Source: Aequorivita xiaoshiensis
GTDB lineage: Bacteria > Bacteroidota > Bacteroidia > Flavobacteriales > Flavobacteriaceae
Direction: 5' to 3'
Assembly (NCBI RefSeq): GCF_022008395.1
Contig: NZ_JAIRBB010000003.1
Coordinates: forward strand, 62,001-126,000
DNA length: 64,000 nucleotides
A program made the position numbers and the translations under genes. Shown here one piece after another: positions 32,090-64,000 of this stretch. How positions within the stretch are numbered: position 1 is the first letter of the stretch; each line of letters begins with the position of its first letter. The notes under the pieces were generated by a model. The model saw only the letters and a program-made list of their open reading frames with translations, was not told the DNA's origin and searched no databases.

Positions 32090-33367
32090 TTACTCGCTTA
32101 ATCGCTCATTTTCCATATCAATAACCTTAGCAACCGTTTTAACCAAGCGGTTGTGGTTTTTTACAAAAGGATTGGTTTCATCCCAAACATATCCTGCAAG
32201 TACAGCGCAGATTTGTTCTTTAATAACAGGATTTTCTGGTCGGTGAAAAAATATTTTCTGAAGATTCCCTGTGTACCATTCCTTTACATACGTTCTAAAT
32301 ACATCTACACCTCTCATTATATACCCTGTGTACTCTGTTTCCCAATCTACTTGTTCGCCTTTTAATTCTTTAGTGATTAATTTGGCCGATTTTAATCCAG
32401 ATTCTGTTGCGAAAGTTACTCCCGACGAGAATACCGGGTCTAAAAATTCGGCACTGTTGCCGGTAAGAGCATAGCCCTTTCCGTAAAGTTGTTTTACGGC
32501 CTTCGAGTAATTTTTAATTGTATAGGGTTCGAATAAAAATTCTTCGTCCTTTAGTCTATCATAGTAGTAGTCTGAAATTTTCAGCATTTCCTTCATTTTC
32601 TCAGAATTTGTGCCTTTGTAAGATTCTATAAACGAGGTTGGTCCTACAAAACCAATACTAGTAACACCGTTTGAAAAAGGAATCACCCAAAGCCAAACAT
32701 TATCTCTTACAACGTCAAAGGTTATAATAGTTCCTTCTACGCCTTCAGGTCGTTTATTCTCTTTAACGTGAGTGAATATAGCTGAATTAGCATCAAGAGA
32801 CGAAGGTTTGTCTAAACCTAACAATCGAGGTAAAACTCTTCCGTAGCCACTACTATCAATTATAAATTTGGCTTTTATTTTATATTGTGTTCCATTTTTA
32901 TCTTTAACAGTTGTGGTAGAGCTTCCAACCCCTTGAGTTAAATTAATGTCCTCATCGTTTGTATTGAATTTTACATCGACAACTTCATGTCCAAACGAAA
33001 CATCTACGCCTTTATTAACTATTTCTTTAGCCAATGTGTTGTCAAAATCAGCACGAGGAACTTGCCAGGTGTAATCCCAACCAGGAGTGTGTTTTTTACT
33101 AAAATCGAAATTACAAACAATGTTATCCTTCAAAAATCGAGCTCCAGATTTTATTTCAAATCCTTGTGCCATCAAACAATCTAATAGCCCAGTCTCTTCA
33201 AAATGATCCATACAACGCGGTAATAGACTTTCACCTATCACAAAACGTGGAAAGATATTTTTTTCAACTACTTTGCAACTTATTCCATTGTTGTTTAAAT
33301 AAGCAGCAGCCACGCACCCCGAAGGACCAGCTCCAATTATTAACACATCAACATTAATATCATTCAT
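32090..33367 (-). CDS. FAD-dependent halogenase/hydroxylase-like oxidoreductase
   Basis: 425 residues. The N-terminal FAD-binding fingerprint VLIIGAGPSGCVAAAYL is at about 9-25. GESLLPR follows near 46, and GWDYTWQVPRADFD near 95-108 is typical of the flavin-dependent halogenase and geranylgeranyl-reductase group. WLWVIP near 222 matches the WxWxIP fingerprint of flavin halogenases, where it is thought to block mono-oxygenase activity. GNSAEFLDPVFSSGV near 303 closes the FAD site. Chlorinated flexirubins are known, and similar genes sit in flexirubin loci, so ring halogenation or hydroxylation is the best guess. It is transcribed divergently from the ammonia-lyase gene, 101 bases apart. Confidence 0.8.
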   Translation of the reverse strand: MNDINVDVLIIGAGPSGCVAAAYLNNNGISCKVVEKNIFPRFVIGESLLPRCMDHFEETGLLDCLMAQGFEIKSGARFLKDNIVCNFDFSKKHTPGWDYTWQVPRADFDNTLAKEIVNKGVDVSFGHEVVDVKFNTNDEDINLTQGVGSSTTTVKDKNGTQYKIKAKFIIDSSGYGRVLPRLLGLDKPSSLDANSAIFTHVKENKRPEGVEGTIITFDVVRDNVWLWVIPFSNGVTSIGFVGPTSFIESYKGTNSEKMKEMLKISDYYYDRLKDEEFLFEPYTIKNYSKAVKQLYGKGYALTGNSAEFLDPVFSSGVTFATESGLKSAKLITKELKGEQVDWETEYTGYIMRGVDVFRTYVKEWYTGNLQKIFFHRPENPVIKEQICAVLAGYVWDETNPFVKNHNRLVKTVAKVIDMENERLSE

Positions 33368-33397
33368 ATAATTAAGAAATAGATTGTTAAAAAAATA

Positions 33398-33405
33398 TAA
33401 ATTTG
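33398..33405 (+). promoter_or_regulatory. -7 box upstream of the ammonia-lyase gene
   Basis: TAAATTTG at 33398-33405 matches TAnnTTTG exactly and lies 63 bases before the ATG in the divergent intergenic space. The only TTG upstream (33384-33386) is too near, so the -33 half is poor. Confidence 0.35.
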
Positions 33406-33468
33406 CAGTGGAAAGTTACCAATTTATTTTCGCAGTACACATTTTTACACACTTAGATTCATTAATAA

Positions 33469-34995
33469 ATGCCAATACTACAAGGAAAACTGGAAATAGC
33501 AGATTTTGAAAAAACGATCTTCAAAAATGAAGCTGTCCAACTTCACAAAGATATAATAGAAAGAGTTCAAGGTAGTTTTAATTTTCTGAAGGAATTTTCT
33601 GAAAATAAAATTATTTACGGCGTCAATACTGGCTTTGGTCCGATGGCGCAATACAAGATTAAGGACGAGGAACGAATTCAATTGCAATACAATCTTATCC
33701 GCAGCCACGCTTCTGGAACTGGAAATCCTATTTCTGCGCACCACGTACGCGCGGCAATGTTGGCTAGATTAAATACTTTAAGCCTAGGTAATAGTGGTGT
33801 TCATCCGTCTGTAATTAACTTGATGGGTGAATTACTTAACAAAAATATTATTCCGCTAATATACGAACACGGAGGTGTAGGGGCGAGTGGTGATTTGGTA
33901 CAATTGGCACACTTGGCATTGGTGCTAATTGGCGAAGGAGAAGTTTTTTATAAAGGCGAACGAAGAAATACAGCAGAAGTTTTCGAACTTGAAAACCTCC
34001 AACCTATAAAAGTTGAGTTGCGTGAAGGTCTAGCACTGATGAATGGAACTTCGGTTATGACGGGTATTGGTGTTGTAAATGTGCTTTATACTAGAACTAT
34101 TATGGATTGGATGATTAAAGCGTCTTCTGCCATCAATGAAATTGTAAAAGCTTACGACGATCATCTTTCTTTCGAGTTAAATCAAACAAAAAAACATAAC
34201 GGCCAACGTAAAGTTGCCGAGATGATGCGCACACATTTAAAGGATAGTGCGCTTACAAGAAAACGTGAACACCATCTTTATAACGGAACTAAAAAAGAAG
34301 ATGTTTTTATTGAAAAAGTACAAGAGTATTATTCTTTGCGATGTGTTCCGCAGATATTGGGTCCAGTTTTAGATACGCTTGATTCAGTTGAAAGTATTTT
34401 GATTGAAGAAGTAAACTCTGCAAACGACAATCCTATTGTAGATGTTGAAAATAGAAATGTATATCACGGCGGAAATTTCCACGGCGATTATATTTCATTA
34501 GAAATGGATAAACTGAAAATTGTTGTGGCTAAAATGACGATGCTTTCGGAACGTCAACTTAACTATTTATTGAATTCCAAACTTAATGATATTCTTCCTC
34601 CATTTGTTAATATGGGGAAATTGGGTTTAAACTTCGGAATGCAAGGAGTTCAGTTTACTGCAACTTCAACAACAGCAGAAAGTCAAATGCTTAGCAATCC
34701 GATGTATGTCCATAGCATTCCAAATAACAACGACAATCAAGATATTGTAAGTATGGGTACAAATGCTGCGCTTATCACTAAAAAAGTGATAGAAAATGCA
34801 TTTGAAGTGGTTGCAATAGAGCTAATTACCATTATTCAAGCTATCGAATATTTAGAGGTGCAGGATCAGGTGTCTTCTGAAACCAAAAAAATGTATCAGC
34901 AAATTCGTTCGATAGTACCTGTATTTAAAGAGGATGTGGTAATGTATCCTTATGTAAATAAGGTGAAAGAGTACTTGATGGATACTTCCAAATAA
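33469..34995 (+). CDS. Aromatic amino acid ammonia-lyase, probably tyrosine ammonia-lyase
   Basis: Removes ammonia from an aromatic amino acid; in this setting most likely L-tyrosine to 4-coumarate, the aryl starter of flexirubins. 508 residues. The self-forming MIO group comes from Ala139-Ser140-Gly141 in GGVGASGDLVQL. YGVNTGFGP near 50 supplies the catalytic tyrosine, and NSANDNPIVD, GGNFHGDYIS and FTATSTTAES are the family's substrate and MIO-binding stretches. The text closely follows, from memory, the tyrosine-specific enzyme of Flavobacterium johnsoniae. A histidine lyase is less likely because no hut genes are near. It starts the plus-strand pigment region but is cut off from the main operon by a WG-repeat gene. 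Confidence 0.9.
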   Translation: MPILQGKLEIADFEKTIFKNEAVQLHKDIIERVQGSFNFLKEFSENKIIYGVNTGFGPMAQYKIKDEERIQLQYNLIRSHASGTGNPISAHHVRAAMLARLNTLSLGNSGVHPSVINLMGELLNKNIIPLIYEHGGVGASGDLVQLAHLALVLIGEGEVFYKGERRNTAEVFELENLQPIKVELREGLALMNGTSVMTGIGVVNVLYTRTIMDWMIKASSAINEIVKAYDDHLSFELNQTKKHNGQRKVAEMMRTHLKDSALTRKREHHLYNGTKKEDVFIEKVQEYYSLRCVPQILGPVLDTLDSVESILIEEVNSANDNPIVDVENRNVYHGGNFHGDYISLEMDKLKIVVAKMTMLSERQLNYLLNSKLNDILPPFVNMGKLGLNFGMQGVQFTATSTTAESQMLSNPMYVHSIPNNNDNQDIVSMGTNAALITKKVIENAFEVVAIELITIIQAIEYLEVQDQVSSETKKMYQQIRSIVPVFKEDVVMYPYVNKVKEYLMDTSK

Positions 34996-35056
34996 AATTA
35001 TTCAGTCTCCTCAAAATTGTTTATTTTAACTTTAACTAACTTAAAATAATATTATT

Positions 35057-36190
35057 ATGAAATCAATAATTTTAATTCTGAGCTTATTTTTTATTGGTAT
35101 CAATACAGCAAATACACAGGAACTTGCTTTGGTGCGGGATGGTAAAAAATTCGGATATATAAATAAATCTGGTGAATTTGTAATTCAACCACAGTATGAT
35201 AAAGCGGGTAGCTTTTCGGGCAAGTATGCTGCAGTAATGGAAGATAAAAAATGGGGCGTTATTAACGCCTCAGGGGAATGGGTGATTCAACCTACTTACG
35301 ATCGTATAAAGCCTTTTAATTCTGGATACTTTTTAGTTGAAGAAGGTAAAGAATGGAAGTATATAAACACTAAAGGCGAAACTCTCAACACACCTGCCAC
35401 CGATAAGTATTACGATTTCGATCAGGGCGTGGCGATTATTAGAAGTGGTGATAAAGTAGGTTTGATAGACACCAATGGGAAAGCGATTGTTGAAACAAAA
35501 TACGATGAAATTAAAAGTTTTCACGATGGCTATGCAAAGTTCAAAGAAGGAGAAAAATGGGGGTTGATAAGTAAAAAAGGAAAGGTGTTTGTAGCTGCCG
35601 AGTACGATGAGATAGGAAATTATAGCAAAAACGGAATTTGGGCTAAAAAAGGCGATAGCTTTGGGGTGGTCAACAACGGAACTTTTACACCGATTAATGG
35701 CGTTGAAAAAATGTGGGATTTCACAAATGATTCCTCTTTAACTTATGCTCGAAGCGGAGGTAAAATGGGATTTGTAAACGCTAAGGGAGAATGGGTTATA
35801 CAGCCAACTTACGATAAAGTTCGTGCGTTTAATGCAGGTCTTGCTCCCGTTAATATAGGTAAGGAATGGGGATACATTAATGAAAAAGGTGAAAAAGTAA
35901 TAGATATAAAATACAGAGACGCCGAAATATTTTCAGACGATGGTTTAGCACCCGTGAAAGAGAAAAAACTTTGGGGCTTTATAGACAAAACAGGAAATCT
36001 AGTAATTCCTATGGAATATGATATCTCAATGGGAATGTTTGGCTTTTTACAAAAAGGTGCTGAAAAAGGTTTTCAAAACGGACTTGCTCGTGTAAAGTAT
36101 AAGAAAAACTGGGGGTTTATAAATAAGAACGGCCAAGTAGTTGGCAAATGGTTTCAAAACGCAGAAAACTTTGTAGATGTTTCTAAATAG
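35057..36190 (+). CDS. Secreted WG-repeat protein
   Basis: 377 residues with a signal peptide (about 1-20, ending ANTQE). It contains eight or nine WG repeats of about 23-30 residues, each with the pattern KxWGxINxxGEWVIQPxYDxxxxF (for example KKWGVINASGEWVIQPTYD near 65 and KEWGYINEKGEKVI near 270). Repeats in the middle are degenerate, and TPINGVEKMWDF near 210 interrupts the array. WG-repeat proteins are abundant in Bacteroidota and have no fixed function; they probably form a beta-sheet scaffold in the periplasm or at the surface. It stands between the ammonia-lyase and the rest of the pigment genes, which is unexpected. Confidence 0.9.
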   Translation: MKSIILILSLFFIGINTANTQELALVRDGKKFGYINKSGEFVIQPQYDKAGSFSGKYAAVMEDKKWGVINASGEWVIQPTYDRIKPFNSGYFLVEEGKEWKYINTKGETLNTPATDKYYDFDQGVAIIRSGDKVGLIDTNGKAIVETKYDEIKSFHDGYAKFKEGEKWGLISKKGKVFVAAEYDEIGNYSKNGIWAKKGDSFGVVNNGTFTPINGVEKMWDFTNDSSLTYARSGGKMGFVNAKGEWVIQPTYDKVRAFNAGLAPVNIGKEWGYINEKGEKVIDIKYRDAEIFSDDGLAPVKEKKLWGFIDKTGNLVIPMEYDISMGMFGFLQKGAEKGFQNGLARVKYKKNWGFINKNGQVVGKWFQNAENFVDVSK

Positions 36191-36490: not shown

Positions 36491-36492
36491 TT

Positions 36493-36541: not shown

Positions 36542-36556
36542 GTGTTATAAATTTAT

Positions 36557-37309
36557 ATGAAAGAGAAAAAAAACAAACCGAAATACGCATTAATAACTGG
36601 AGGGTCACGTGGTATAGGTCGTGCCATTTGCATACAATTAGCAAAAGATTTAGACTATGGCCTTTTAATAAACTATAACGGGAACAAAGAAGCAGCTCAA
36701 CAAACCCTGAACGAAGTTGAAGACCTAGGAGGAAAAGGTGAAATTATGCAGTTCGACGTAACCGATGCCGAAGCGGTAAATAAAGCACTTGATACATGGC
36801 ATTCAAAAAACAAAGATGCTGTTGTTGAGGTAATTGTAAACAATGCAGGTATTACTAAAGACGGCTTGTTTATGTGGATGAACCAAGACGATTGGAATAG
36901 TGTAATTAATACTAGTTTAAATGGTTTTTACAATGTTACTAATGCTCTTATTCAGAAACTGTTGGTTAATAAATATGGGAGAGTAATAAATATGGTTTCA
37001 GTTTCTGGACTAAAGGGGACACCGGGCCAAGTAAATTATTCTGCTGCAAAAGGGGCGGTTATTGGTGCAACAAAAGCCCTAGCACAAGAAGTTGCTAAAC
37101 GCAATATTACTGTAAATGCTGTAGCACCAGGATTTATAAATAGTGATATGACTGCTGAGCTTGACCAGAAAGAACTTAAAAAAATGGTTCCAGCCAATCG
37201 TTTTGGTGAAGCAGAAGAAGTAGCACATTTAGTAAGTTTTTTAGCATCCAATAAAGCTTCATATATTACCGGGGAAGTTATTAATATTAATGGAGGTATT
37301 TATTCCTAA
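36557..37309 (+). CDS. 3-oxoacyl-ACP reductase (FabG/ApeQ-like)
   Basis: Short-chain dehydrogenase that reduces the 3-keto group in each polyene extension cycle with NADPH. 250 residues. The nucleotide-binding motif is TGGSRGIGRAI near 15, then NNAGITKDG near 95, catalytic Ser in SVSGLKG near 150, and YSAAKGA near 163 (YxxxK). The C-terminal GEVINING closes the family pattern. It opens the main plus-strand operon and is followed 12 bases later by a ketosynthase gene. Compared with housekeeping FabG, its position alone points to a pigment role. Confidence 0.92.
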   Translation: MKEKKNKPKYALITGGSRGIGRAICIQLAKDLDYGLLINYNGNKEAAQQTLNEVEDLGGKGEIMQFDVTDAEAVNKALDTWHSKNKDAVVEVIVNNAGITKDGLFMWMNQDDWNSVINTSLNGFYNVTNALIQKLLVNKYGRVINMVSVSGLKGTPGQVNYSAAKGAVIGATKALAQEVAKRNITVNAVAPGFINSDMTAELDQKELKKMVPANRFGEAEEVAHLVSFLASNKASYITGEVININGGIYS

Positions 37310-37321: not shown

Positions 37322-38542
37322 GTGAGAAGAGTAGTTATAACCGGTATGGGTATTTATTCCTGTATAGGGAAGAACCTAGAAGAAGTAAAAGAGTCGTTAT
37401 TCAACGGAAAATCTGGCATTATCTGCGATGGAAAGCGCAAAGATTTTGGTTACCGTTCTTGTTTGACAGGATGGGTAGAAGAGCCAGATTTAAAAAAACA
37501 ACTTTCTCGTCGCGAACGTGTTAGTTTGGGTGAAGAAGGAGCGTATGCGTACGCTGCTACTTTGGAAGCCCTAAAGAATGCAAAAATAGACGAGCAATTT
37601 CTAGAAAAAAATGAAGTAGGAATTCTCTACGGAAATGATAGTACTGCAAAATCAGTAATTGAATCGGTAGATAAAATTCGAGAAAAGAAAGATACTACTC
37701 TTGTAGGTTCAGGTGCTATTTTTAAAGCAATGAACTCATCCGTAACTATGAATCTCGCTACTATTTTTAAGTTGAGAGGGATTAATTTTACAATTAGTGC
37801 AGCTTGTGCAAGTGGGTCGCATTCTGTTGGGATGGCATATTTTTTAATTAAAAACGGATTACAAGACTGCATAATTTCAGGAGGAGCTCAAGAAATAAAC
37901 GAATTTGCTATGGGTAGTTTTGATGGCTTAGGAGTTTTTTCTACTCAATTAGATCCAACTAAAGCTAGTCGTCCTTTCGACAAAGACCGCGATGGCTTGG
38001 TACCTAGTGGTGGAGCTGCTTCTTTAGTAATAGAAAGTTACGAAAGTGCTGTAAAGCGTGGCGCACCAATTTTAGGTGAAATTATTGGGTACGGATTTTC
38101 ATCTAATGGAGATCATATTTCTACTCCTAACGTCGATGGCCCTTCGCGAGCAATGAAAATGGCCTTACTGCAGGCAAATATTAAAGCATCAGAAGTAGAT
38201 TATGTAAATGCACATGCCACATCAACCCCTGTAGGAGACGCCAATGAAGCCCTTGCAATCACCGATGTTTTTGGCGAAAATGGCCCTTGCGTTAGTTCTA
38301 CAAAATCAATGACTGGGCACGAATGTTGGATGGCGGGAGCTAGCGAAATAATATATTCTATGCTAATGATGGAGCATTCTTTTGTTGCACCGAACATCAA
38401 TTTAGAAAGCGTAGACGAGGCTGCTTCAAAATTAAACCTTGTTAACAAAACGTTAAACAAAAAAATTGATGTATTTTTGTCGAATTCATTTGGCTTTGGT
38501 GGTACCAATTCCGCATTAATTATTAAAAAATGCAAACTTTAG
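37322..38542 (+). CDS. Beta-ketoacyl-ACP synthase (KAS I/II type), active
   Basis: Condenses malonyl-ACP with the growing acyl chain. 406 residues, GTG start. The catalytic triad is present: Cys in SAACASGSHS near 162, His in NAHATSTPVGD near 298, and His in KSMTGHECWMAGA near 333. The C-terminal NSFGFGGTNSALI is standard. The first motif reads HATSTP rather than HGTGTP, a feature shared with FabB-like enzymes. It lies 12 bases after the ketoreductase gene and overlaps the ACP gene by 13 bases, so the three are one translational unit. Confidence 0.92.
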   Translation: MRRVVITGMGIYSCIGKNLEEVKESLFNGKSGIICDGKRKDFGYRSCLTGWVEEPDLKKQLSRRERVSLGEEGAYAYAATLEALKNAKIDEQFLEKNEVGILYGNDSTAKSVIESVDKIREKKDTTLVGSGAIFKAMNSSVTMNLATIFKLRGINFTISAACASGSHSVGMAYFLIKNGLQDCIISGGAQEINEFAMGSFDGLGVFSTQLDPTKASRPFDKDRDGLVPSGGAASLVIESYESAVKRGAPILGEIIGYGFSSNGDHISTPNVDGPSRAMKMALLQANIKASEVDYVNAHATSTPVGDANEALAITDVFGENGPCVSSTKSMTGHECWMAGASEIIYSMLMMEHSFVAPNINLESVDEAASKLNLVNKTLNKKIDVFLSNSFGFGGTNSALIIKKCKL

Positions 38543-38787
38543 AAATGAACAAAGAAGTTATAGTAGAAAAGATCAACTACTTTTTGGTAGATGAATTTGA
38601 GGTGGATAAAGATGATATAGAACCAAATGCAAACCTAAAGGAAACGCTTGAGTTGGATAGCTTAGATTTCGTGGATTTGGTGGTTGCTATTGAAGCTAAC
38701 TTTGGAGTTAAATTAACTGGTGAAGATTTTCAAAACATTCTAACTCTTCAAGATTTTTACGATTTAATCGAAACAAAAATCGGATAA
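38530..38787 (+). CDS. Acyl carrier protein (first of two in the cluster)
   Basis: 85 residues, acidic, helical. The phosphopantetheine attachment serine is in LELDSLDFVDLV near residue 44. It carries intermediates during polyene extension. Two starts are possible, ATG 38530 inside the ketosynthase gene (MQTLEMNKEV) or ATG 38545 (MNKEVIVEK). The second fits the usual ACP N-terminus better, but the overlap start gives tight coupling. The second ACP is at 49708. Confidence 0.93.
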   Translation: MQTLEMNKEVIVEKINYFLVDEFEVDKDDIEPNANLKETLELDSLDFVDLVVAIEANFGVKLTGEDFQNILTLQDFYDLIETKIG

Positions 38788-38803: not shown

Positions 38804-39685
38804 ATGGCGGGCGAGTGGGAAGGTAAAAGCAAAGGCACCGTTTTAGGGTATAAAATATTCATTTTTTTTATAAGAAAACTTGGTGTTGAAGCAGCTTATG
38901 GTTTGCTGTATTTTGTTGCGCTTTATTATGTTTTCTTCGCAGGAAAAAGCACTCAATCTATATATTACTATTTTCGAAGAAGGCTTGAGTATTCCAGCTT
39001 CAAAAGCTTGGTAAGCATTTATAAAAGTTATTACGTTTTCGGAAAAACTATAATCGATAAAGCCGCAATCTCTTCAGGCTTAAAAAATAAATTCACTCAT
39101 GAATGTGATGGTGTCGAAAATATAACCGACTTGCTTGACAAGCAACAAGGAGGAATACTTATTAGTGCTCACGTTGGGAATTTTGAAATTGCTGAATTCT
39201 TTTTTGAAGAAATTGATACTAGATCTCAAATTAGTCTTGTAACTACAGATGCCGAACATCGAAATATCAAGGAGTATATGGAGAAAGTTACTGTGCGTTC
39301 TAAGATTAAATTTATTTTGGTGAAGGATGATATGTCACATATATTTGAAATTAATAACGCATTGAGTAATGGAGAATTAGTTTGCTTCACTGGTGACAGA
39401 TATATGAAAGATCAAAAGGTGTTGTCCGAACCGTTGTTGGGGAAAGAAGCTAATTTTCCAGCAGGACCATTTCTTTTAGCTAGCAGACTAAAAGTGCCGG
39501 TTTTGTTTGTTTATGTTATGAAAGAAACAAACAAGCATTACCATTTATACGCTCGAAAAGCGGAAGTGAAAAGCCGAGATGCACAAGGGCTATTAAAAAA
39601 ATATACAGAAAGTGTAGAGTGGATGTTGGGTATGTATCCTTTGCAGTGGTTTAATTATTTTGATTTTTGGGAAACAGATGACTAG
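38804..39685 (+). CDS. LpxL/HtrB-like lysophospholipid acyltransferase
   Basis: 293 residues. An N-terminal hydrophobic segment (about 20-50) anchors it to the inner membrane. The acyltransferase core has SAHVGNFEIAEFF near 120 (HxxxxE form of the HX4D/E motif) and TGDRYM near 198 followed by LGKEANFPAGPFLLA, as in lipid A secondary acyltransferases. In aryl-polyene and flexirubin loci this kind of enzyme is thought to transfer the finished polyene from ACP to a lipid or resorcinol acceptor. It follows the ACP gene by 16 bases. Confidence 0.87.
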   Translation: MAGEWEGKSKGTVLGYKIFIFFIRKLGVEAAYGLLYFVALYYVFFAGKSTQSIYYYFRRRLEYSSFKSLVSIYKSYYVFGKTIIDKAAISSGLKNKFTHECDGVENITDLLDKQQGGILISAHVGNFEIAEFFFEEIDTRSQISLVTTDAEHRNIKEYMEKVTVRSKIKFILVKDDMSHIFEINNALSNGELVCFTGDRYMKDQKVLSEPLLGKEANFPAGPFLLASRLKVPVLFVYVMKETNKHYHLYARKAEVKSRDAQGLLKKYTESVEWMLGMYPLQWFNYFDFWETDD

Positions 39686-46807: not shown

Positions 46808-46809
46808 AA

Positions 46810-54677: not shown

Positions 54678-54732
54678 TATTTATCTAAGCCTAAGAAGGT
54701 TTTTAAACCTATTAGATTTAGAATTTACAATT

Positions 54733-55338: not shown

Positions 55339-56532
55339 ATGAGCCAAAAATTACATTCAGAAAAACTCAATTCCTTGAAGTGTTGCGTGATTATTCCTAC
55401 TTATAATAATCAAAAGACTTTGCAACGGGTAATTGAAGGTGTTTTAGTTTACACTGAAAATGTAATTGTGGTGAACGATGGATCCACAGATTCGACTCCA
55501 GAAATATTGCTACAGTTTCCGCAATTAAGGTTAATTAACCTTGCACAAAATAAAGGAAAGGGAAACGCACTGCGACAGGGTTTTAAACACGCTGAAAGTT
55601 TGGGTTACCATTACGCCATTACCATTGATAGTGATGGGCAACATTTTCCAGAGGATATTCCAGTTTTTACAGAAGCTTTAGAAAAGTCGGAAAACAAAAA
55701 ATTACTCCTTATCGGCGCACGAAATATGGGGCAAACGGGAGTGCCTAAGAAAAGTAGTTTTGGAAACAAATTTTCAAATTTTTGGTTTTGGGTAGAGACG
55801 GGAATTCGCTTAAAAGACACTCAGTCTGGCTTTAGATTATATCCGCTTTACGCAATGAAAAACTTAAACTTTTACACCAATAAATTTGAATTTGAAATTG
55901 AAGCCATAGTCAAATCTGCCTGGAGTGGGATAGAAGTGAAAAATATTCCAATTCAAATTCACTATGAGTTGAAAAACAGGGTTTCACATTTTCGACCGTT
56001 TAAAGATTTTACACGAATAAGTATCTTAAACACTTGGCTAGTACTTGTTACCTTTCTATATATTAAACCACGAAATCTCTTTAGGAAATTAAAAAAAAAA
56101 GGGCTTAAAAGGTTCTTGATGGAAGACTTACTTCAAAGCGATGATTCTGCCGAAAAGAAAGCTTTTTCGATCGCTTTAGGAGTATTTATAGGCTTGTCTC
56201 CAATTTGGGGCTTTCATACTATATCGGTTATATTTTTGGCTATTCTTTTGAAGCTAAATAAGGTGATTGCCTTTGCTTTTTCTAATGTGAGCTTGCCTCC
56301 ATTTATACCGTTTATTCTTTATTTCAGTTTAAAACTTGGGAGCTGGCTTTTAGGTGAAAACTTTGTCCTTTCATTTAATGAAATAGATCCTAGTTTAGAG
56401 CTAGTGAAATATTTAAAATCTTATATTGTTGGCAGTTTGGCTCTTTCAATTTCTGCAGCAATTCTCTGCGGACTTGCAGGATACATAATCTTAACGTTGT
56501 TTGAGCGTAAAAAGATTTTTAAGAATGGGTAA
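55339..56532 (+). CDS. Glycosyltransferase family 2 fused to DUF2062
   Basis: 397 residues. The N-terminal GT2 domain (about 15-225) begins CVIIPTYNNQKTLQRVIEG, with VVNDGSTDSTPEIL near 48 (DGS) and ITIDSDGQHFPEDI near 95 (metal-binding DxD-like), and KDTQSGFRLYP near 162 as in dolichol-phosphate mannose synthases. Then comes a short amphipathic linker, and from about 260 a DUF2062 membrane domain (FSIALGVFIGLSPIWGFHTI; FALSNVSLPPFIPF-like) with three or four helices. This GT2-DUF2062 fusion probably adds a sugar or glycosyl phosphate to a lipid carrier. It overlaps the next gene by 8 bases, and the GT2 type is also known in aryl-polyene loci. Confidence 0.87.
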   Translation: MSQKLHSEKLNSLKCCVIIPTYNNQKTLQRVIEGVLVYTENVIVVNDGSTDSTPEILLQFPQLRLINLAQNKGKGNALRQGFKHAESLGYHYAITIDSDGQHFPEDIPVFTEALEKSENKKLLLIGARNMGQTGVPKKSSFGNKFSNFWFWVETGIRLKDTQSGFRLYPLYAMKNLNFYTNKFEFEIEAIVKSAWSGIEVKNIPIQIHYELKNRVSHFRPFKDFTRISILNTWLVLVTFLYIKPRNLFRKLKKKGLKRFLMEDLLQSDDSAEKKAFSIALGVFIGLSPIWGFHTISVIFLAILLKLNKVIAFAFSNVSLPPFIPFILYFSLKLGSWLLGENFVLSFNEIDPSLELVKYLKSYIVGSLALSISAAILCGLAGYIILTLFERKKIFKNG

Positions 56533-59500
56533 ATGGTTTTTTAAGGCATATCAATCTCTTCAAAATAATAAATCCCGGAGTGCAATTATCTTTATAGTGT
56601 TGCTCTCAGGTTTGGTGTTTCTTGTTACTAAAATTCAATTTGAAGAAGATATTTCTAAATTAATACCTGTAGAAGGAGAGTCTAAAAACCTTCAGAAGGT
56701 ATTAAAATCAGTGAATTTTACCGATAAAATTATTGTTACCCTTCAGAAAAATGAAGATGTAACCGTTGAAGAACTTACCGATTACGCTTCAGAATTTATC
56801 GACAGCTTACAAACTCACTCATCTCAATACATCAAAAACATTAGAGGGAAAGTAAACGATGACGATTTACTTCGTACCATGAATTTTGTGTATGAAAATT
56901 TGCCTTTATTTCTTGATAAGGACGATTACAAAACCATTGCCAATAAGCTCGAGAAAGATAGTGTTTCGGCTATAACAGCAGCGAATTACAAAACGCTTAT
57001 TTCCCCTTCTGGAATAGTAACGAAAGATATTATTTTAAAAGACCCTATAGGACTTTCATTAATCGCCTTAAAAAAACTCAGACAGCTTGGAGTCACCGAT
57101 GAATTTGTATTGAAGGATGGGTTTTTAGTAAGTAAGGATGAAAATAATCTTCTTCTATTTATCACTCCACAATATGCAAGTAGTGAAACTTCCGAAAACA
57201 GCAAGTTTTCCGAAAAACTATATGCGCTACAAGATTCTCTAGATCTTAAATATTCAGGAAAAGTAAAAAGTGAATATTTTGGAGCTGCGTTAATTGCAGT
57301 TGCCAATGCCCAGCAAATAAAGCGTGATATACAGTTTACCGTAGGTATCGCTTTTTCGTTATTGGTTCTAGTTTTTATATTCTTTTACCGAAAGATATAT
57401 GTTCCCATAATTTTATTTGTACCGACGCTTTTCGGTGGACTTTTAGCAGTTGCACTATTGCATTTAGTTCGAGACAACATCTCTGCAATTTCACTAGGGA
57501 TTGGCTCAGTTTTGCTCGGGGTGACATTGGATTATTCACTTCATATACTCACTCATATTCGCAATAATGAAACGGTAGAAAGTTTGTATAAAGATGTTGC
57601 AGAACCAATATTGATGAGCAGTTTAACAACTGCCTTGGCATTTTTATGTCTCTTATTTTTAGATTCTCAAGCCTTACAGGATTTGGGGATGTTTGCTGCT
57701 GTAAGTGTCTTGGGTGCTTCGGTTTTTGCGCTTTTATTTATTCCGTTGGTTTACAAAAATCCACTTTCGCAAAAGCAACAAGTTAATGTGTTAGACAAAA
57801 TCGCCGATTACCCTTACCATAGAAATAAATGGTTGTTAATTGGTCTAGGAGCCGTTTTAGCGACAAGCTTTTTCACTTTTAATAAGGTTGAATTTGATAA
57901 AGATATTTCAAAATTAAATTATGAGCCTGAAGCGTTAAAAACGGCAATGCAGCATTTAGATGAGTTGACAGATATTTCCTCTAAATCAGTCTACTTAACA
58001 ACCTATGGAAAATCGGTGGAAAGTACGCTTCAGCTAAACGATTCTATCCACGCAACTTTAGAGTTACTTAAAGAAGATGAACAAATAAGCAGTTTTAGTT
58101 CTATTGGAGCTTTGGTGCATTCACAGCGTGACCAAAGAAATAAAATAGCTGTATGGCAACAGTTTTGGAGTGAAGCTCGAAAGGATAGCACTGCAAATAG
58201 TCTAATTGAAAGTGGGGAAGAGCTTGGTTTTAAACCTTCAACTTTTAGTAAGTTTTACTCTTTTCTGAATAAAGACTTCAACACTTTAAAACCTGAAGAC
58301 TATCAGCAAATTCCATCGATTATTCTTGAAGATTACATTACTACCGAAGCTGGATTTACAACCATTACGACACTAGTGAAGCTGGATGATGTAGATGTTT
58401 CTGATATTAAAGATAGGTTCAAGAAAATCCCGAATACCTATGTTATTGATAGGCAGGAAATGAATGAAACCTTCTTAGGGAATCTTAAAAACGATTTCAA
58501 CAACCTAATTGGGTATTGCTTGCTAGCGGTTTTATTAATACTGTTTTTATTCTTCCGAAGTTTCTCTCTCACTTTGGTTACTGCAACCCCAATTTTCCTA
58601 ACTTGGTTTCTAACCTTAGGGATAATGGGATTGCTCAATATTCAATTCAATATTTTCAATATTATAATCTCTACTTTCATTTTTGGATTGGGAATCGATT
58701 ACAGCATTTTTATGACTAAAGGCTTGTTAAAAGAACTCGCCACGGGTGAAAAAGTAATGGTAACCAACAGAGCATCAATAATACTGTCGGTTTTAACCAC
58801 GATTCTTGGAGTTGGAGTTCTAATTTTTGCTAAACATCCGGCATTGTATTCAATATCTATAGTCTCGATCATTGGGATATTTTCGGCAATGTTTACAGCC
58901 TTCACAGTGCAACCGTTATTGTTTAAACTTTTTATAGGCAGTTCAAAAAAACGCCCTATAACTCCTAGGATGTTTGTGCATTCGATATTGTCGTTTAGTT
59001 ATTTCGGATTAGGAGGAATATTGCTTTCAATCTACAGTGTAACCTTAATGCCAATCTTACCAATCAGTAAGAAAACATCGATGGGATGGTTTCATAAAGT
59101 TATATCGAAATTCTTTAAATCGGTATTATACACTAATCCCTTTGTACAAAAAACAATAATCAATGAATCGGGTGAGGATTTTTCAAAACCTGCCGTAATT
59201 ATAGCCAACCACACTTCATTCCTTGATATTTTGGCGGTGGGAATGTTAAATCCAAAAATCTGTTTCTTGGTAAACGATTGGGTTTATAATTCTCCAATAT
59301 TTGGGAAAGCAGTACAAAAAGCGGATTTCTACCCTGTATCAAGTGGAATTGAAAATAGCTTAGAGCCCTTAAAAAAGAAGATTGAGGAAGGATATTCGTT
59401 GATGGCTTTTCCAGAAGGTACTAGAAGCGACTCCAATAAAATTAAGCGTTTTCACAAAGGAGCTTTTTATTTGGCAAATCAATTCAATTTGGATATTCTA

Positions 59501-60223
59501 CCGGTTTTAATTCACGGAAATAGCGAAGTAAACCCTAAGGGAAGCTTTATTATTATAGACGGTAGCATTACTGTAAAGATTTTACCGCGTATAAAGGCCG
59601 AAGACCCTTCATATGGAGAAAGTCATAGGCAACAAGCAAAACAAATAGGCGCGTATTTTAGAGATGAGTTTTTAAAAATTAGAAACGAAATTGAAGGTGT
59701 AAAATACTTTCACAATATTGTTTTAGAAGAATACCGATATAAAGGAGACTCAGTTTATAAGGCTGTAAAAAAGGATTTAAAAGAAAATGCTGCGCCGTAT
59801 TTCGAAACCTTAAGGTATCTCGAAAAGCGTGGGAATATTGCACATATTTCAGATGGTAATGGACAACTCGACTTTCTTTTGAATCTTGATGGGCCAGATA
59901 GAAAAATTTTCAGCTATATTGAAGATTCAGATATTAGAGCAATACTTCAAAATAGTTATATAACTAATAAATACGGTAAGGTTTATTTTAAATCATCTAT
60001 CACAGCTGTATTGAACGCAGATGTGGAAATGCTAGTAATTTCTTCAGAAAAATACCTAGCTGAAGTAATAGACATTTTACCGCAAATTTCTGTAAAAACC
60101 GTTGTCTTTCTGAAAGATGCATCCCTTGTTGAGAAGGAAAATATTGTTACATTAGACTACCAAAGAGTATATCAAAATACGAATATTAGTATTTTTAATC
60201 TATCGAGAACCACAGCAGAATGA
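56525..60223 (+). CDS. MMPL exporter fused to a PlsC-type acyltransferase and a methyltransferase-like tail
   Basis: 1232 residues from ATG 56525. Residues 1-800 are an MMPL/RND exporter: two repeats of periplasmic domain plus membrane helices, with GVTLDYSLHIL near 335 and GLGIDYSIFMTKG near 725. About 815-1065 is an acyltransferase domain with NHTSFLDI near 895 (NHX4D) and FPEGTRSDSNKI near 965. The last ~160 residues (YRYKGDSVYKAVKKDLKEN near 1080 and ISDGNGQLDFLLNL near 1110) look like a degenerate SAM-binding Rossmann domain. The exporter and acyltransferase parts would flip and acylate a polyene lipid in one protein. It overlaps the GT2 gene by 8 bases and the next gene by 4. Confidence 0.88.
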   Translation: MGKWFFKAYQSLQNNKSRSAIIFIVLLSGLVFLVTKIQFEEDISKLIPVEGESKNLQKVLKSVNFTDKIIVTLQKNEDVTVEELTDYASEFIDSLQTHSSQYIKNIRGKVNDDDLLRTMNFVYENLPLFLDKDDYKTIANKLEKDSVSAITAANYKTLISPSGIVTKDIILKDPIGLSLIALKKLRQLGVTDEFVLKDGFLVSKDENNLLLFITPQYASSETSENSKFSEKLYALQDSLDLKYSGKVKSEYFGAALIAVANAQQIKRDIQFTVGIAFSLLVLVFIFFYRKIYVPIILFVPTLFGGLLAVALLHLVRDNISAISLGIGSVLLGVTLDYSLHILTHIRNNETVESLYKDVAEPILMSSLTTALAFLCLLFLDSQALQDLGMFAAVSVLGASVFALLFIPLVYKNPLSQKQQVNVLDKIADYPYHRNKWLLIGLGAVLATSFFTFNKVEFDKDISKLNYEPEALKTAMQHLDELTDISSKSVYLTTYGKSVESTLQLNDSIHATLELLKEDEQISSFSSIGALVHSQRDQRNKIAVWQQFWSEARKDSTANSLIESGEELGFKPSTFSKFYSFLNKDFNTLKPEDYQQIPSIILEDYITTEAGFTTITTLVKLDDVDVSDIKDRFKKIPNTYVIDRQEMNETFLGNLKNDFNNLIGYCLLAVLLILFLFFRSFSLTLVTATPIFLTWFLTLGIMGLLNIQFNIFNIIISTFIFGLGIDYSIFMTKGLLKELATGEKVMVTNRASIILSVLTTILGVGVLIFAKHPALYSISIVSIIGIFSAMFTAFTVQPLLFKLFIGSSKKRPITPRMFVHSILSFSYFGLGGILLSIYSVTLMPILPISKKTSMGWFHKVISKFFKSVLYTNPFVQKTIINESGEDFSKPAVIIANHTSFLDILAVGMLNPKICFLVNDWVYNSPIFGKAVQKADFYPVSSGIENSLEPLKKKIEEGYSLMAFPEGTRSDSNKIKRFHKGAFYLANQFNLDILPVLIHGNSEVNPKGSFIIIDGSITVKILPRIKAEDPSYGESHRQQAKQIGAYFRDEFLKIRNEIEGVKYFHNIVLEEYRYKGDSVYKAVKKDLKENAAPYFETLRYLEKRGNIAHISDGNGQLDFLLNLDGPDRKIFSYIEDSDIRAILQNSYITNKYGKVYFKSSITAVLNADVEMLVISSEKYLAEVIDILPQISVKTVVFLKDASLVEKENIVTLDYQRVYQNTNISIFNLSRTTAE

Positions 60224-61758
60224 CTGAGAAATACGATGTAGTAATTATTGGTAGCGGTCTAGGAGGCCTGGTTTCGGCAATTATACTAGCCAAAGAGGGA
60301 TATAGTGTATGTGTGCTCGAGAAGAACCAACAGTTTGGCGGTAATCTACAAACCTTCTCACGAAATAAAACCATTTTTGATACAGGGGTTCATTATATAG
60401 GTGGACTTTCAGAAGGACAAAATCTAAATAGGTACTTTAAGTATTTAGGTATTCTTGACGATATCACACTTAAGAAAATGGACGAAGATGGTTTTGATAG
60501 AATCACTTTTGACAATGACCCAACGGAATACAAATACGCGCAAGGTTATGAAAGGTTTAAAAAAACGCTCCTCGAGGAATTTCCTGAAGAAGAAAAGGCA
60601 ATAGATGCTTATTGCAATAAAATGAAGGAAACTTGCGATTTCTTTCCGCTTTACAGACTTAAACTTGGGAAACCATATTATGAAAACACTTCACTCTTTG
60701 AAGTGAAAATTAAAGATTTTATAGATTCGATTACAGATAATAAAAAATTACAAGCAGTATTAGGAGGGAGCAATTTGCTATATGCTGGTGAGGGGGAGCG
60801 TACTCCTTTGTATATGCACGCTTTGTCAGTAAACTCTTATATAGAAAGCTCCTATCGTTGTATAAATGGTGGAAGTCAAATAACCAAGGCGCTACTTGCT
60901 AGGCTTCGTGAAAATGGAGGAAAGGCATTTAAACGCCACGAAGTAACAAAGTTTGTTACAGAAGATGGACAGGTTTCAGCAGTTGAAATTGCAAATGGGA
61001 AGACAATAAAAGGCGATATATTTATTTCTAATGTAGACCCTAAGATGACCTTGCAAATGATTGGTGAAAATCACTTTAGGAAATCTTACACCAAACGTAT
61101 TGAGAATATTGAAAGTACAATTGCAGCTTTTAGCCTCTATTTAGTATTGAAACCCAAGAGTTTTAAATACTTAAACCATAATTACTATCATTTTAAAGAC
61201 TATAACGCTATTTGGGATGCGCATAAGTATACCGAAGAAAGTTGGCCCGAAGTGTATATGGCTTCCATGGGAATTAAGAAAGACGAAGATGAGTATGGGG
61301 ATAATTTAACGGTTATGACATATATGCGTTTTGAAGAAATGGAACCTTGGATAAATACTTTTAATACAGCCGCCGATAAAAACGAGAGAGGGCAAACCTA
61401 TGAAGAGTTTAAGCAGCAAAAGGCTGAGGTAGTTATTCAAGAGTTAGAGAAAAAATTCCCAAACATACGAGATTGTATAGAAGCAGTTTACGCTTCAACC
61501 CCTTTATCGTACCGTGATTATATTGGGTGTAATAAAGGATCGATGTATGGCTTTGTTAAAGACGCTAATAGTCCATTAAAATCTTTTGTGTCGTCACGAA
61601 CCAAAATCAAGAATCTTTATTTTACTGGGCAAAGTTTAAATATGCACGGTATTTTAGGTGTTACAATTAGTGGAGTAGTAACTTGTTCTGAAATTTTGGG
61701 AGGGGAATATCTTTTAAATAAAATTTTAGAAGCTTCAAATACGGAAAGGATAACTTAA
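60220..61758 (+). CDS. CrtI/retinol saturase-like FAD oxidoreductase
   Basis: 512 residues. The FAD-binding signature VVIIGSGLGGLVSAIILAKEG is at about 7-27, followed by CVLEKNQQFGGNLQTF. GGSQITKALLARL near 217 and the C-terminal LYFTGQSLNMHGILGVTISG near 467-486 close the fold of carotenoid isomerase, phytoene desaturase and all-trans-retinol 13,14-reductase proteins. In a polyene locus it may isomerise or reduce double bonds of the chain. It overlaps the MMPL fusion by 4 bases. No other carotenoid genes are near, so a carotenoid substrate is less likely. Confidence 0.87.
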   Translation: MTEKYDVVIIGSGLGGLVSAIILAKEGYSVCVLEKNQQFGGNLQTFSRNKTIFDTGVHYIGGLSEGQNLNRYFKYLGILDDITLKKMDEDGFDRITFDNDPTEYKYAQGYERFKKTLLEEFPEEEKAIDAYCNKMKETCDFFPLYRLKLGKPYYENTSLFEVKIKDFIDSITDNKKLQAVLGGSNLLYAGEGERTPLYMHALSVNSYIESSYRCINGGSQITKALLARLRENGGKAFKRHEVTKFVTEDGQVSAVEIANGKTIKGDIFISNVDPKMTLQMIGENHFRKSYTKRIENIESTIAAFSLYLVLKPKSFKYLNHNYYHFKDYNAIWDAHKYTEESWPEVYMASMGIKKDEDEYGDNLTVMTYMRFEEMEPWINTFNTAADKNERGQTYEEFKQQKAEVVIQELEKKFPNIRDCIEAVYASTPLSYRDYIGCNKGSMYGFVKDANSPLKSFVSSRTKIKNLYFTGQSLNMHGILGVTISGVVTCSEILGGEYLLNKILEASNTERIT

Positions 61759-61769
61759 AGAGTTTAGAG

Positions 61770-62657
61770 ATGTCACAAATCAAATCAAAACCTATTGAAA
61801 GGGTTCGGAATATTTCTAAGAAAGAGTTTATTGAGAAATATTACAAACCTCAAAAGCCTGTTTTAATTGAAGGACTCACAAAAGATTGGAAGGCGTTTAA
61901 AATGTGGAACTTGGACTATATTCAAAAACATGCTGGAGATCAGGTGGTTCCGCTTTATAATAATGAGCCTACAAAAGGGAAGCAGAATTCGGCCGAGCCT
62001 GCTACTGAAATGAAGATGTCTGACTATATCGAACTTATAAAATCGAAACCTACCGATTTAAGAATCTTCTTCTACGATCTTAAGGTGAAATTGCCAGAAC
62101 TTCTAAAAGATTTTGAATATCCCAATATTGGTTTAAAGTTTTTTAAACGTCTTCCGGTGCTGTTTTTTGGAGGTGAAGGTTCTAAGGTTTTACCACATTA
62201 CGACATGGACTTAGCAGACTTAGTGCATTTCCATTTTCAGGGGACTAAGAGAGTTTTGCTTTTCTCTCCCGAGCAAACTAAATATTTATATAAAATTCCA
62301 TTTGCAGTACATAATTTAGAAACCATCGATTTAGATAATCCCGATTTTGACGAATATCCTGCGTTAAAATATGTGGAAGGAATTCACGCGACGATGCAAC
62401 ACGGTGATGCCCTGTATATGCCAAGCGGTTATTGGCACTATATAAAATATTTAAATGGAGGCTTTTCTATGACACTTCGAGCTTTTCCAAGGCATTTAGG
62501 TCGTTTTGGAAATATGCTTTACAATGTGTTTTTTATGCGACATTTCGAAAATATAATGCGAAAATCATTTGGGCAAAAGTGGATTGATTATAAAGAAAAC
62601 CGTGCCTATAAAAAAACAAATAATAGGGTAGCCAAGCTGAATGATCAAAATTTATAA
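61770..62657 (+). CDS. Cupin-like JmjC-fold oxygenase-like protein
   Basis: 295 residues. It opens with a JmjC/cupin_8 pattern (KKEFIEKYYKPQKPVLIEGLTKDW near 17-40), then LPHYDMDLADLVHFHFQGTK near 147-165 with the HxD metal ligands and GDALYMPSGYWHYIKYL near 212-228 with the second histidine. This is the site of Fe(II)/2-oxoglutarate hydroxylases. The substrate may be a protein side chain or the pigment. It lies 11 bases after the FAD enzyme gene and two bases before the C45 gene. Confidence 0.87.
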   Translation: MSQIKSKPIERVRNISKKEFIEKYYKPQKPVLIEGLTKDWKAFKMWNLDYIQKHAGDQVVPLYNNEPTKGKQNSAEPATEMKMSDYIELIKSKPTDLRIFFYDLKVKLPELLKDFEYPNIGLKFFKRLPVLFFGGEGSKVLPHYDMDLADLVHFHFQGTKRVLLFSPEQTKYLYKIPFAVHNLETIDLDNPDFDEYPALKYVEGIHATMQHGDALYMPSGYWHYIKYLNGGFSMTLRAFPRHLGRFGNMLYNVFFMRHFENIMRKSFGQKWIDYKENRAYKKTNNRVAKLNDQNL

Positions 62658-62659
62658 GG

Positions 62660-64000
62660 ATGAAGATTTCAGGAAAGTTACTTGCATTTGCGTTTTTAAT
62701 ATTTCTTTTGAATTCGTGTGGAGTGTCAAAATCTGTAAACAATAGACCTAATGTCAGTGACTATAACTCTTCGATTCCTGAAAAAATTAAAATAAACGAT
62801 TCTACTTTTATAGCTGGGAACAACTTCTTCTTAAAAAACAAACAAGGTTTGTGGGAGTTATATGTGGAAGGAAATCCATTGCAAATTGGGGAGATAACTG
62901 GAAGCCTTACGCAAAAACAACTTCAAAATCAGGAGGCTTATATCTTCAATATGGTGGAAGATATAATCCCTTCAAAGTTTCAACAATTTCTACTTCGTAA
63001 GTTTTTGGCTTGGTACAATCGCAAAATGTATCAACATATCCCTGAGGAATATAAATCCGAAATTTATGGTCTTTCTCAATATTCATCATCAAATTTCAGT
63101 GAAATTGGCGAGCCTTATTTGCGAATACTATACTTGCACGGCGCTCACGACATTGGCCATGCAATGCAAGATTTAATGCTAGTTGGGTGTTCATCGTTCG
63201 CTGTATGGGGAGATAAAACAGTCGACAATGATTTGCTAATTGGAAGAAATTTCGATTTTTATGCTGGAGATGACTTTGCTAAGGAGAAAATAATCTCTTT
63301 TGTAAACCCTTCAAAAGGGCACAAGTTTATGTCGGTAACTTGGGGTGGAATGATTGGTGTAGTGTCTGGGATGAATGCGCAAGGTTTAACAGTTACTATA
63401 AATGCTGGGAAATCTAAAATTCCCTTAATTGCTAAAACACCAATATCTATAGTAACACGCGAAATTCTTCAATACGCATCTACTATTGATGAGGCAATTG
63501 CTATTGCCAAAAAGCGTGAGGTATTTGTATCCGAAGCTATTTTTGTAGGTAGCGCTAAGGATAAAAAAGCAGTTGTTATTGAAGTTTCACCGGATAATTT
63601 TGGTGTTTATGAAGTAGAAAATACCAATAAACTTATATGTAGTAATCACTTTCAAAGTGAAGAATATCAAAATGACCAACGCAATATAAAATGGATAGAA
63701 GAGAGTCATTCTATGTACCGTTTTGAAAGGATGCAAGAACTGATTTCAGAAAAAGAAAAAATTGATGTTAAAGATGCAGTTGCCATTCTACGAAATAAAA
63801 AGGGGTTAGATAACAAAGAAATAGGTTTTGGAAATGAAAAAGCCTTAAACCAACTTTTGGCCCATCATGGGATTGTTTTTAAACCAGAAAGTAAAAAGGT
63901 GTGGGTTTCTTCAAATCCCTATCAATTAGGAGAATTTGTGGAATACGATTTAGATGAGATTTTTATGAATAGGGAGGACAACCCAGCAATTACTACCGTT
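62660..64000 (+). CDS. C45-family Ntn-hydrolase/acyltransferase lipoprotein, 5' part (runs off window)
   Basis: 447 codons seen, still open at the right edge. The start is MKISGKLLAFAFLIFLLNSC, with a lipobox-like cysteine at residue 20 that predicts a lipoprotein at the outer or inner membrane. The catalytic motif is VGCSSFAVWG near 176-185, where the cysteine after cleavage is the N-terminal nucleophile of the penicillin N-acyltransferase family (C45). NDLLIGRNFDFYAGD near 192 and GMIGVVSGMNAQGLTVTINAG near 230-250 complete the pattern. Enzymes of this family move acyl groups between thioesters and amines or alcohols, so it is a candidate for forming the polyene-resorcinol ester. Confidence 0.87.
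   Translation, partial: MKISGKLLAFAFLIFLLNSCGVSKSVNNRPNVSDYNSSIPEKIKINDSTFIAGNNFFLKNKQGLWELYVEGNPLQIGEITGSLTQKQLQNQEAYIFNMVEDIIPSKFQQFLLRKFLAWYNRKMYQHIPEEYKSEIYGLSQYSSSNFSEIGEPYLRILYLHGAHDIGHAMQDLMLVGCSSFAVWGDKTVDNDLLIGRNFDFYAGDDFAKEKIISFVNPSKGHKFMSVTWGGMIGVVSGMNAQGLTVTINAGKSKIPLIAKTPISIVTREILQYASTIDEAIAIAKKREVFVSEAIFVGSAKDKKAVVIEVSPDNFGVYEVENTNKLICSNHFQSEEYQNDQRNIKWIEESHSMYRFERMQELISEKEKIDVKDAVAILRNKKGLDNKEIGFGNEKALNQLLAHHGIVFKPESKKVWVSSNPYQLGEFVEYDLDEIFMNREDNPAITTV

Follow-up and report, generated by a model that had tools for sequence, protein, structure and literature searches.

A complete flexirubin-type gene cluster in Aequorivita xiaoshiensis, its separable dialkylresorcinol module and a candidate ester synthase, DarH

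Introduction

The described flexirubin systems closest to the one studied here are the cluster of Flavobacterium johnsoniae UW101, which covers 37 kb and carries darB as Fjoh_1102, and the flxA-flxY genes of Chitinophaga pinensis. According to the accessible text on Chitinophaga, the activities of FlxA (tyrosine ammonia-lyase, TAL) and FlxY (4-coumarate-CoA ligase) have been shown, DarA and DarB of C. pinensis yielded a dialkylresorcinol (DAR) when expressed heterologously, and the ligase-like FlxW was guessed to carry out the ester step (PMC3992019). In this study, we analyzed a 64,000-base stretch of Aequorivita xiaoshiensis DNA (hereafter the window; bases 62001-126000 of the 274,101-base contig NZ_JAIRBB010000003.1, in a 3.06-Mb draft genome of 83 contigs), in which a 33-gene cluster is very probably a complete flexirubin cluster, for a tyrosine-primed aryl polyene plus DAR.

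Like F. johnsoniae, the locus has darA/darB in one cluster with an ammonia-lyase gene and counterparts of LolA2/LolB2, a likeness drawn from excerpts of the literature rather than gene by gene. It shares the FlxA, FlxB, FlxY and DarA/DarB functions with C. pinensis, likened by partial published description and not by sequence; unlike that species, in which the dar and flx genes are described in two places, the genes form one block here. A third system is the xanthomonadin-DAR hybrid arcuflavin, the DAR-polyene ester pigment of Azoarcus sp. BH72. In the excerpted report, its dar operon also holds an ABC transporter, an acyl carrier protein (ACP), a ketosynthase (KS) and, two genes from darB, a BtrH-like gene, and it differs in having a hydroxybenzoate-primed polyene, no alkali colour shift and unlinked polyene loci (PMC3949708).

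By comparison and modelling, we narrowly favor a twofold proposal: that DarH is a papain-like, carrier-protein-dependent ester synthase, and that the DAR block has been lost as a module several times within the Flavobacteriaceae, leaving a DAR-free tyrosine-primed aryl polyene. As such, the cluster adds confirmation of a chemotaxonomic pigment type already known for Aequorivita, and its borders are now fixed; the module split and the DarH proposal carry some novelty, which is limited to them.

Results and discussion

Gene content, borders and integrity of the cluster

The cluster spans window positions 32090-64000 and continues past the window edge. The first-pass annotation, made from the window alone, had it running off the window; this was right for the rest of the AAT-like gene (to 64318) and all of FlxY (64381-65682), but only 1682 bases are involved, and the cluster ends with FlxY at contig base 127682 (window coordinate 65682). 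A Usp-type gene follows on the opposite strand, and the genes beyond it are presumably rimP-nusA-infB (translation genes).

All 36 reading frames (33 cluster genes and three neighbors) were without internal stops, and this result together with the contig extension ruled out a broken or cut-off cluster; interruption by frameshifts, on which the first-pass annotation had let its reading depend, was checked for and none was found. Neighboring genes do overlap in many places, as had been noted, but with the chosen, predicted start codons the range is 1-32 rather than 1-23 bases. No match to the DarB-to-DarH stretch (3608 bases) was found among 72,556 plasmid records. The genes are as follows (window coordinates):

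32090..33367, minus strand: FMO, FAD-dependent halogenase-type, candidate ring chlorinase (PF04820, 8e-19)
33469..34995, plus: FlxA, tyrosine ammonia-lyase (NF053541, 896.5 bits, cut-off 700)
35057..36190, plus: WG-repeat protein (PF14903)
36557..37309, plus: FlxB, ketoreductase of the short-chain dehydrogenase/reductase type (NF053542, 418.9, cut-off 340)
37322..38542, plus: KS1, FabB/F-like ketosynthase, active Cys (family match, residues)
38530..38787, plus: ACP1, DSL motif (PF00550)
38804..39685, plus: LpxL-like acyltransferase, HX4E (PF03279)
39818..40735, plus: DarA, DAR aromatase/cyclase (named by position, annotation and co-occurrence with DarB)
40735..41868, plus: DarB, KAS III-type ketosynthase for DAR (NF053539, 671.8, cut-off 550)
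41869..42306, plus: DH1, hotdog dehydratase, FabZ-like (match below curated cut-off)
42306..42764, plus: DH2, hotdog protein, ApeP-like (weak match, below curated cut-off)
42767..43165, plus: DarG (NF053545, 213.6, cut-off 170)
43350..44345, plus: DarH, predicted BtrH-type cysteine acyltransferase (NF053550, 511.9, cut-off 300; PF14399, BtrH N-terminal, 4e-53; longest frame from 43305)
44385..45128, plus: ABCa, ABC transporter ATPase (PF00005)
45106..46389, plus: ABCb, ABC-2 permease, start chosen (PF12698; longest frame from 45058)
46379..46807, plus: 4HBT thioesterase (PF13279)
46783..47958, plus: KS2, ketosynthase, active Cys (family match, residues)
47968..49041, plus: FlxJ-type methyltransferase (NF053543, 445.6, below cut-off 560)
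49094..49711, plus: 205-residue KS-like stub (weak FabF match, 17.9 bits)
49708..49965, plus: ACP2, DSI motif (PF00550)
50033..51235, plus: KS3, ketosynthase, active Cys (family match, residues)
51235..52299, plus: KS4, dead KS partner (catalytic Cys replaced)
52293..53069, plus: polysaccharide deacetylase-family protein (PF01522)
53062..53691, plus: LolA-type carrier (PF03548)
53669..54310, plus: orf213, likely LolB2 counterpart (by position, without family match)
54312..54677, plus: DH3, hotdog dehydratase, FabA/ApeI-like (PF07977)
54655..55224, plus: orf189, DAR-linked (co-occurrence with the DAR block)
55339..56532, plus: glycosyltransferase 2 plus DUF2062 (family match)
56501..60223, plus: 1240-residue MMPL exporter with C-terminal acyltransferase, HX4D at 904 (family match, motif)
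60220..61758, plus: CrtI/CrtD-like FAD oxidoreductase (below the cut-offs of named NCBIfam models)
61770..62657, plus: cupin_8/JmjC-like protein (PF13621, 4e-36)
62660..64318 (window part to 64000), plus: AAT-like N-terminal nucleophile (NTN) hydrolase protein, C45 (PF03417, 9e-25)
64381-65682 (outside the window), plus: FlxY, 4-coumarate-activating ligase (NF053551, 748.7, cut-off 520)

Six products (FlxA, FlxB, DarB, DarG, DarH and FlxY) passed the NCBIfam cut-offs of flexirubin/DAR models. With these scores, the same gene order in all six Aequorivita regions and an alkali-positive relative, A. aurantiaca, the flexirubin gene set called in the first-pass annotation was upheld, and its darA/darB, tyrosine ammonia-lyase, two ACPs, exporters and tailoring enzymes were all present with open frames. 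Two points tell the other way: the methyltransferase falls short of the FlxJ model (445.6 against 560), and the potassium hydroxide (KOH) evidence comes from A. aurantiaca, not from the strain itself.

The DAR block as a separable module

We compared the two halves of the cluster in a family panel of 184 Flavobacteriaceae genomes and a phylum panel of 198 Bacteroidota genomes, counting the AAT-like protein as present at E<=1e-40 (genomes, contigs and loci carry our own G, C and L numbers). In the family panel, FlxA was over cut-off in 47 genomes, and the AAT-like protein was found in the identical 47. DarH exceeded its cut-off in 36 genomes and DarB in 35; in the remaining one (G275), DarB is a fragment at a contig end that scores below cut-off. 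Counting this fragment, the two genome sets were identical. DarB over cut-off always occurred with FlxA, and 11 of the 47 FlxA-containing genomes had no DAR block. In the phylum panel, DarH was over cut-off in 12 genomes and DarB in 11 of them, with G073 at 518.7 bits (cut-off 550); FlxA was over cut-off in 13, and the AAT-like protein and FMO were found in 12. Two genomes dissociated in opposite ways: G154, a draft assembly with the cluster near a contig end, had FlxA, DarB and DarH without the AAT-like protein or FMO, and G173 had the AAT-like protein and FMO without DarB or DarH over cut-off. Thus, DarH follows the DAR half, and the AAT-like protein and FMO the polyene half. DarB and DarH also co-occurred where they were unlinked: G073 has them on separate contigs, and in G264 some 52 kb lie between them and about 0.5 Mb separates them from FlxA.

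We then compared 19 loci with DAR genes and all 11 loci found without them. The former consisted of nine of ten 40-kb regions (G037 was left out; six were Aequorivita, near-repeats) and ten of the 36 family genomes with DAR genes, the first ones listed except for G017, G264 (dispersed) and G275 (cut by contig ends), which were passed over; this choice favors linked clusters. Absence here means absence from the fetched 40 kb, except for DarB, DarH, FlxA and the AAT-like protein, which were scored genome-wide. First, DarA, DarB, DarG, DarH, ABCa, ABCb and orf189 were present in 19/19 loci with DAR genes and 0/11 without, and the WG repeat (17/19 and 0/11) and DH2 (19/19 and 2/11) showed nearly the same pattern. 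Second, KS1, ACP1, orf213 and the CrtI-like gene were found in 19/19 and 3/11, DH1 in 19/19 and 10/11, and FlxY in 16/19 and 11/11, one of its three misses (G004) being a region that ends inside FlxY. The methyltransferase (12/19 and 6/11) and cupin (12/19 and 8/11) genes occurred on both sides. Finally, all 30 loci contained FMO, TAL, KR (ketoreductase), LpxL, thioesterase, KS2, the 205-residue stub, ACP2, KS3, KS4, deacetylase, LolA, DH3, glycosyltransferase, MMPL and AAT-like genes.

Fisher p-values for these counts and for the family panel do not allow for shared ancestry. DAR status changed four times on the cluster tree (one FastTree of seven concatenated polyene-side proteins), whose midpoint rooting leaves the root state and direction open. 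One locus, in G384 (C6, L173-L174), retains DNA for the first 48 DarA residues, followed by DH1 and DH2 matched in two frames; it showed no DarG, DarH, ABC or significant DarB match, and its WG-repeat match was shortened. This is probably a recent loss of the DAR block in a decaying cluster.

Since the DAR block comes and goes as a unit, the polyene and DAR halves are separable, and the four changes would also suit a model of two interleaved clusters whose aryl polyene and DAR are separate end products, never joined. DARs are indeed described as signaling molecules in the accessible text of one source (PMC9606717). Nevertheless, DarB over cut-off was never found without FlxA in the family panel, and the excerpted report on A. 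aurantiaca describes a pigment of flexirubin type in KOH, a test that alone is no proof of an ester (PMC10608841). We consider two unjoined products highly improbable. If the favored module split holds, about a quarter of the FlxA-type clusters in the family panel (11/47) would make a non-flexirubin pigment, and such DAR-free polyene makers would matter wherever flexirubin serves as a taxonomic marker.

Five Flavobacteriaceae (G028:C12:543156-544262, G382:C5, G408:C29, G261:C1 and G417:C2), two of which are without DarH, carry a second family of DarB-like proteins (385-400 bits, frames of 616-628 residues). This family perhaps belongs to a different resorcinol pathway.

DarH as a candidate ester synthase

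Because DarA and DarB of C. pinensis suffice for DAR, DarH is not needed for making DAR. We regard it, with moderate confidence, as the best candidate found for the polyene-DAR ester synthase, with the DAR phenol as acceptor; from family, predicted fold, residue conservation and co-occurrence we infer donor, acceptor and ester product. A literature search, with subscription papers including Fuchs 2013 and McBride 2009 outside it, returned no assignment of the ester step to DarH. The module split points to an enzyme for the joining step that can be tested, where that literature offers only the FlxW guess.

The conservation analysis revealed C9 and H122 in 91/91 rows and D138 in 90/91 (88 of the 91 sequences differ), and C9, H118 and H122 were kept even in a homologue of 28% identity. 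In the AlphaFold2 model of DarH (predicted local distance difference test score, pLDDT, 83.7; predicted template modelling score, pTM, 0.85), C9 starts the first helix and H122 starts a strand. All 16 Protein Data Bank (PDB) matches of this model at E<=0.001 in Foldseek were AziU3/U2, CtaG or CcbD, so that the model fold is like the BtrH-type fold of CtaG, CcbD and AziU3. A PDB search with the DarH sequence gave ten matches at E<=1, none a recognizable relative, the best being designed coiled-coil-like chains. The PDB titles of CtaG variants name C11A, H128A and D144N, and the triad spacings are similar: His and Asp are 16 apart in both proteins (H122-D138 in DarH, H128-D144 in CtaG), and Cys and His 113 (C9-H122) against 117. 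We therefore assign a putative C9-H122-D138 triad to DarH. As for mechanism, CcbD is described in the available part of its report as a carrier-protein-dependent ping-pong Cys-His-Glu enzyme, which passes the acyl group from carrier protein to cysteine to amine (PMC12945683). DarH would share the Cys-His-acid residues and the carrier-protein substrate.

Several points weigh against this assignment. CcbD makes an amide according to the same excerpt (PMC12945683), whereas DarH would form an aryl ester; DarH is only 12-15% identical to its fold relatives AziU3/U2, CtaG and CcbD, and its triad is matched to that of CtaG by spacing, not by residue-level superposition. The co-occurrence of DarH with DAR genes would fit a role in DAR export or processing as well. 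Co-occurrence also breaks down below the cut-offs: DarB-like proteins without a DarH match were found in the controls Bacteroides ihuae and Caulobacter vibrioides and in G261 and G417, all four of which look like paralogues, and DarH-like proteins without DarB over cut-off were found in G213 and G272. DarH-like proteins of this kind score 152-189 bits (cut-off 300) and occur in G037 (L050/L049), G213 (L156), G272:C20 and G373:C23; no DarB was found in the 40 kb examined around the G037 gene. They may represent a related acyltransferase of another pathway.

The ester could instead be made by the AAT-like NTN protein, the LpxL-like protein, the MMPL-fused acyltransferase or FlxW, the last being the published suggestion of Schoner et al. 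in the accessible text (PMC3992019). The AAT-like protein is a member of an acyltransferase superfamily (PF03417) and accompanies FlxA in all 47 family-panel genomes. However, all 11 loci without DAR genes retain the AAT-like protein, LpxL and MMPL, which hence are not DAR-specific, and G154, with the draft status noted above, has DarB and DarH along with FlxA in the absence of an AAT-like protein at the threshold used. We judge an ester synthase other than DarH rather unlikely.

Gene order and distribution of the cluster

Of the 28 Aequorivita genomes in the relatives panel (own genome included), 22 had DarH. Identity of DarH was 98% to A. sinensis and 86-90% to other named Aequorivita, in a named-locus comparison that covered 80 of 190 loci. 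In all six Aequorivita 40-kb regions, two of which end inside FlxY, the order was complete from the halogenase-type gene through FlxY, so that the 33 genes stand in the same order as in other Aequorivita, A. antarctica being likened from partial print (PMC6139392). G028, of another genus, had the full order without the methyltransferase. G039 and G052, of another family, had most genes, though as rearranged blocks, and lacked methyltransferase, cupin and WG repeat; FlxY was not seen within the 40 kb fetched in G039 and G255. The tenth region, G037, had only a distant DarH homologue.

The exact FMO-to-LolA order of the window was found in 47 of the 80 named loci, and a further 13 were identical except for the methyltransferase, an optional gene overall (63/80). 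The remaining 20 were mostly cut by locus or contig ends; they include four Tamlana loci in which TAL, ketoreductase and KS1 are missing at this place, one Aquimarina locus without WG repeat and methyltransferase, two loci in which the TAL-WG match is doubled, and one from Algoriphagus without several genes. Among close relatives, A. lipolytica (L062) has the same order over 21 kb, and A. aurantiaca (L061, a 731,083-base contig) has the same cluster as the window. In the accessible part of its description, the A. aurantiaca pigment turned orange-red in KOH, reversed by acid, and the antiSMASH similarity of its cluster to the F. johnsoniae flexirubin cluster was 75% (PMC10608841). Excerpts of two other reports list an arylpolyene-resorcinol cluster in Aequorivita sp., A. 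antarctica and A. lipolytica (PMC6139392) and, across 2,680 genomes of the group, a total of 1,234 flexirubin clusters (PMC10734526). Within its group, the present cluster is an ordinary one, of textbook flexirubin type and known already, including in this genus.

The first-pass annotation had suggested that the gene order, together with the additional genes (WG repeat, cupin, AAT-like, CrtI-like and FMO), may define a variant product, i.e., another pigment. Since this order is the usual one in Aequorivita, for which the cluster type has already been published, it is no sign of a variant, and beyond the genus the order and gene set recur in the 47 plus 13 named loci given above. The methyltransferase and the cupin do vary among lineages, and ring decoration therefore probably varies as well; differences in ring methylation and chlorination are known already among flexirubins, as far as the excerpted source goes (PMC3992019). 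A variant product is thus improbable, and we keep to an ordinary flexirubin.

In two Aequorivita regions, unlike in the window, a 5-kb insert separates orf189 from the glycosyltransferase gene (G006, L044:5820-9951; G004, L046:5868-10627); it encodes two large secreted-looking proteins of 637-638 and 727 residues and, in G004, an additional one of 208. Among the controls, Bacteroides ihuae exceeded the cut-offs of the FlxA and FlxJ models, with DarB below cut-off and no DarH match, perhaps an FlxA-type polyene cluster outside Flavobacteriales.

Individual enzymes and proposed pathway

A type II polyene set (KS, KR, dehydratase (DH), ACP and KS partner) is present. The Cys-His-His set, which we take to be catalytic, was found in KS1, KS2 and KS3, and the Cys is replaced in KS4. 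Three active ketosynthases and one dead one had thus been called correctly, but a fifth, KS-like protein, the 205-residue stub at 49094, had been missed. Conserved in 30/30 loci, this stub is possibly a chain-length-factor-like partner; a PDB search with it gave nothing significant, the sole ketosynthase match being 6kxd chain B (E 0.51). DarB is a separate KAS III-type protein, apart from KS1-KS4 and the stub. Four hotdog-type proteins were found instead of the three first reported: DH1 (41869), DH2 (42306), DH3 (54312) and the 4HBT thioesterase (46379). The two acyltransferase domains reported, LpxL-like and MMPL C-terminal, were confirmed, but two further candidates, DarH (43350) and the AAT-like protein (62660), had gone unnamed. 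FlxA has ASG at 139, presumably the MIO motif, and the methyltransferase has 3dp7 as its nearest PDB entry (1e-92). No family match to DarA was found in Pfam or NCBIfam profile searches. The C-terminal half of the DarG model (pLDDT 68) weakly resembles a Cro/C1-type helix-turn-helix, and its structure search returned no match at E<=0.001; on this model, DarG might tentatively be a regulator or a repurposed fold.

FMO matched 3nix (1e-146), PltA (1e-35) and CmlS (3e-30) in the PDB, and has GAGPSG at 12, WLWVIP at 225 and K73. We take GxGxxG, WxWxIP and the active-site Lys to be flavin-dependent halogenase motifs. A full-length FMO match was obtained at 15 of 91 places, most other loci ending within or before FMO, and WLWVIP and K73 were kept in all 15 full-length rows. 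Since chlorinated flexirubins have been described (PMC3992019, accessible text), FMO may plausibly act as a ring chlorinase, and its retention in 11/11 loci without DAR genes fits an action on the polyene.

In the proposed pathway, by analogy with Chitinophaga, FlxA would convert tyrosine to 4-coumarate and FlxY would activate it. KS1-KS3, with KS4 and the stub as partners, the two ACPs, FlxB and the hotdog dehydratases would build an ACP-bound aryl polyene, and DarA/DarB would form the DAR, as shown for the Chitinophaga pair. DarH would then, as we find fairly likely, pass the polyene acyl group from the carrier protein to Cys9 and on to the DAR phenol to give the ester, and FMO and the FlxJ-type enzyme may chlorinate and methylate the ring. 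Finally, LolA, the LolB-like protein, MMPL and the ABC proteins would transport the product, or components of it, in the direction of the outer membrane. LolA and orf213 hold the positions of LolA2 and LolB2 in F. johnsoniae, for which a part in flexirubin or lipoprotein transport has been suggested in the accessible portion of the report (PMC11885536).

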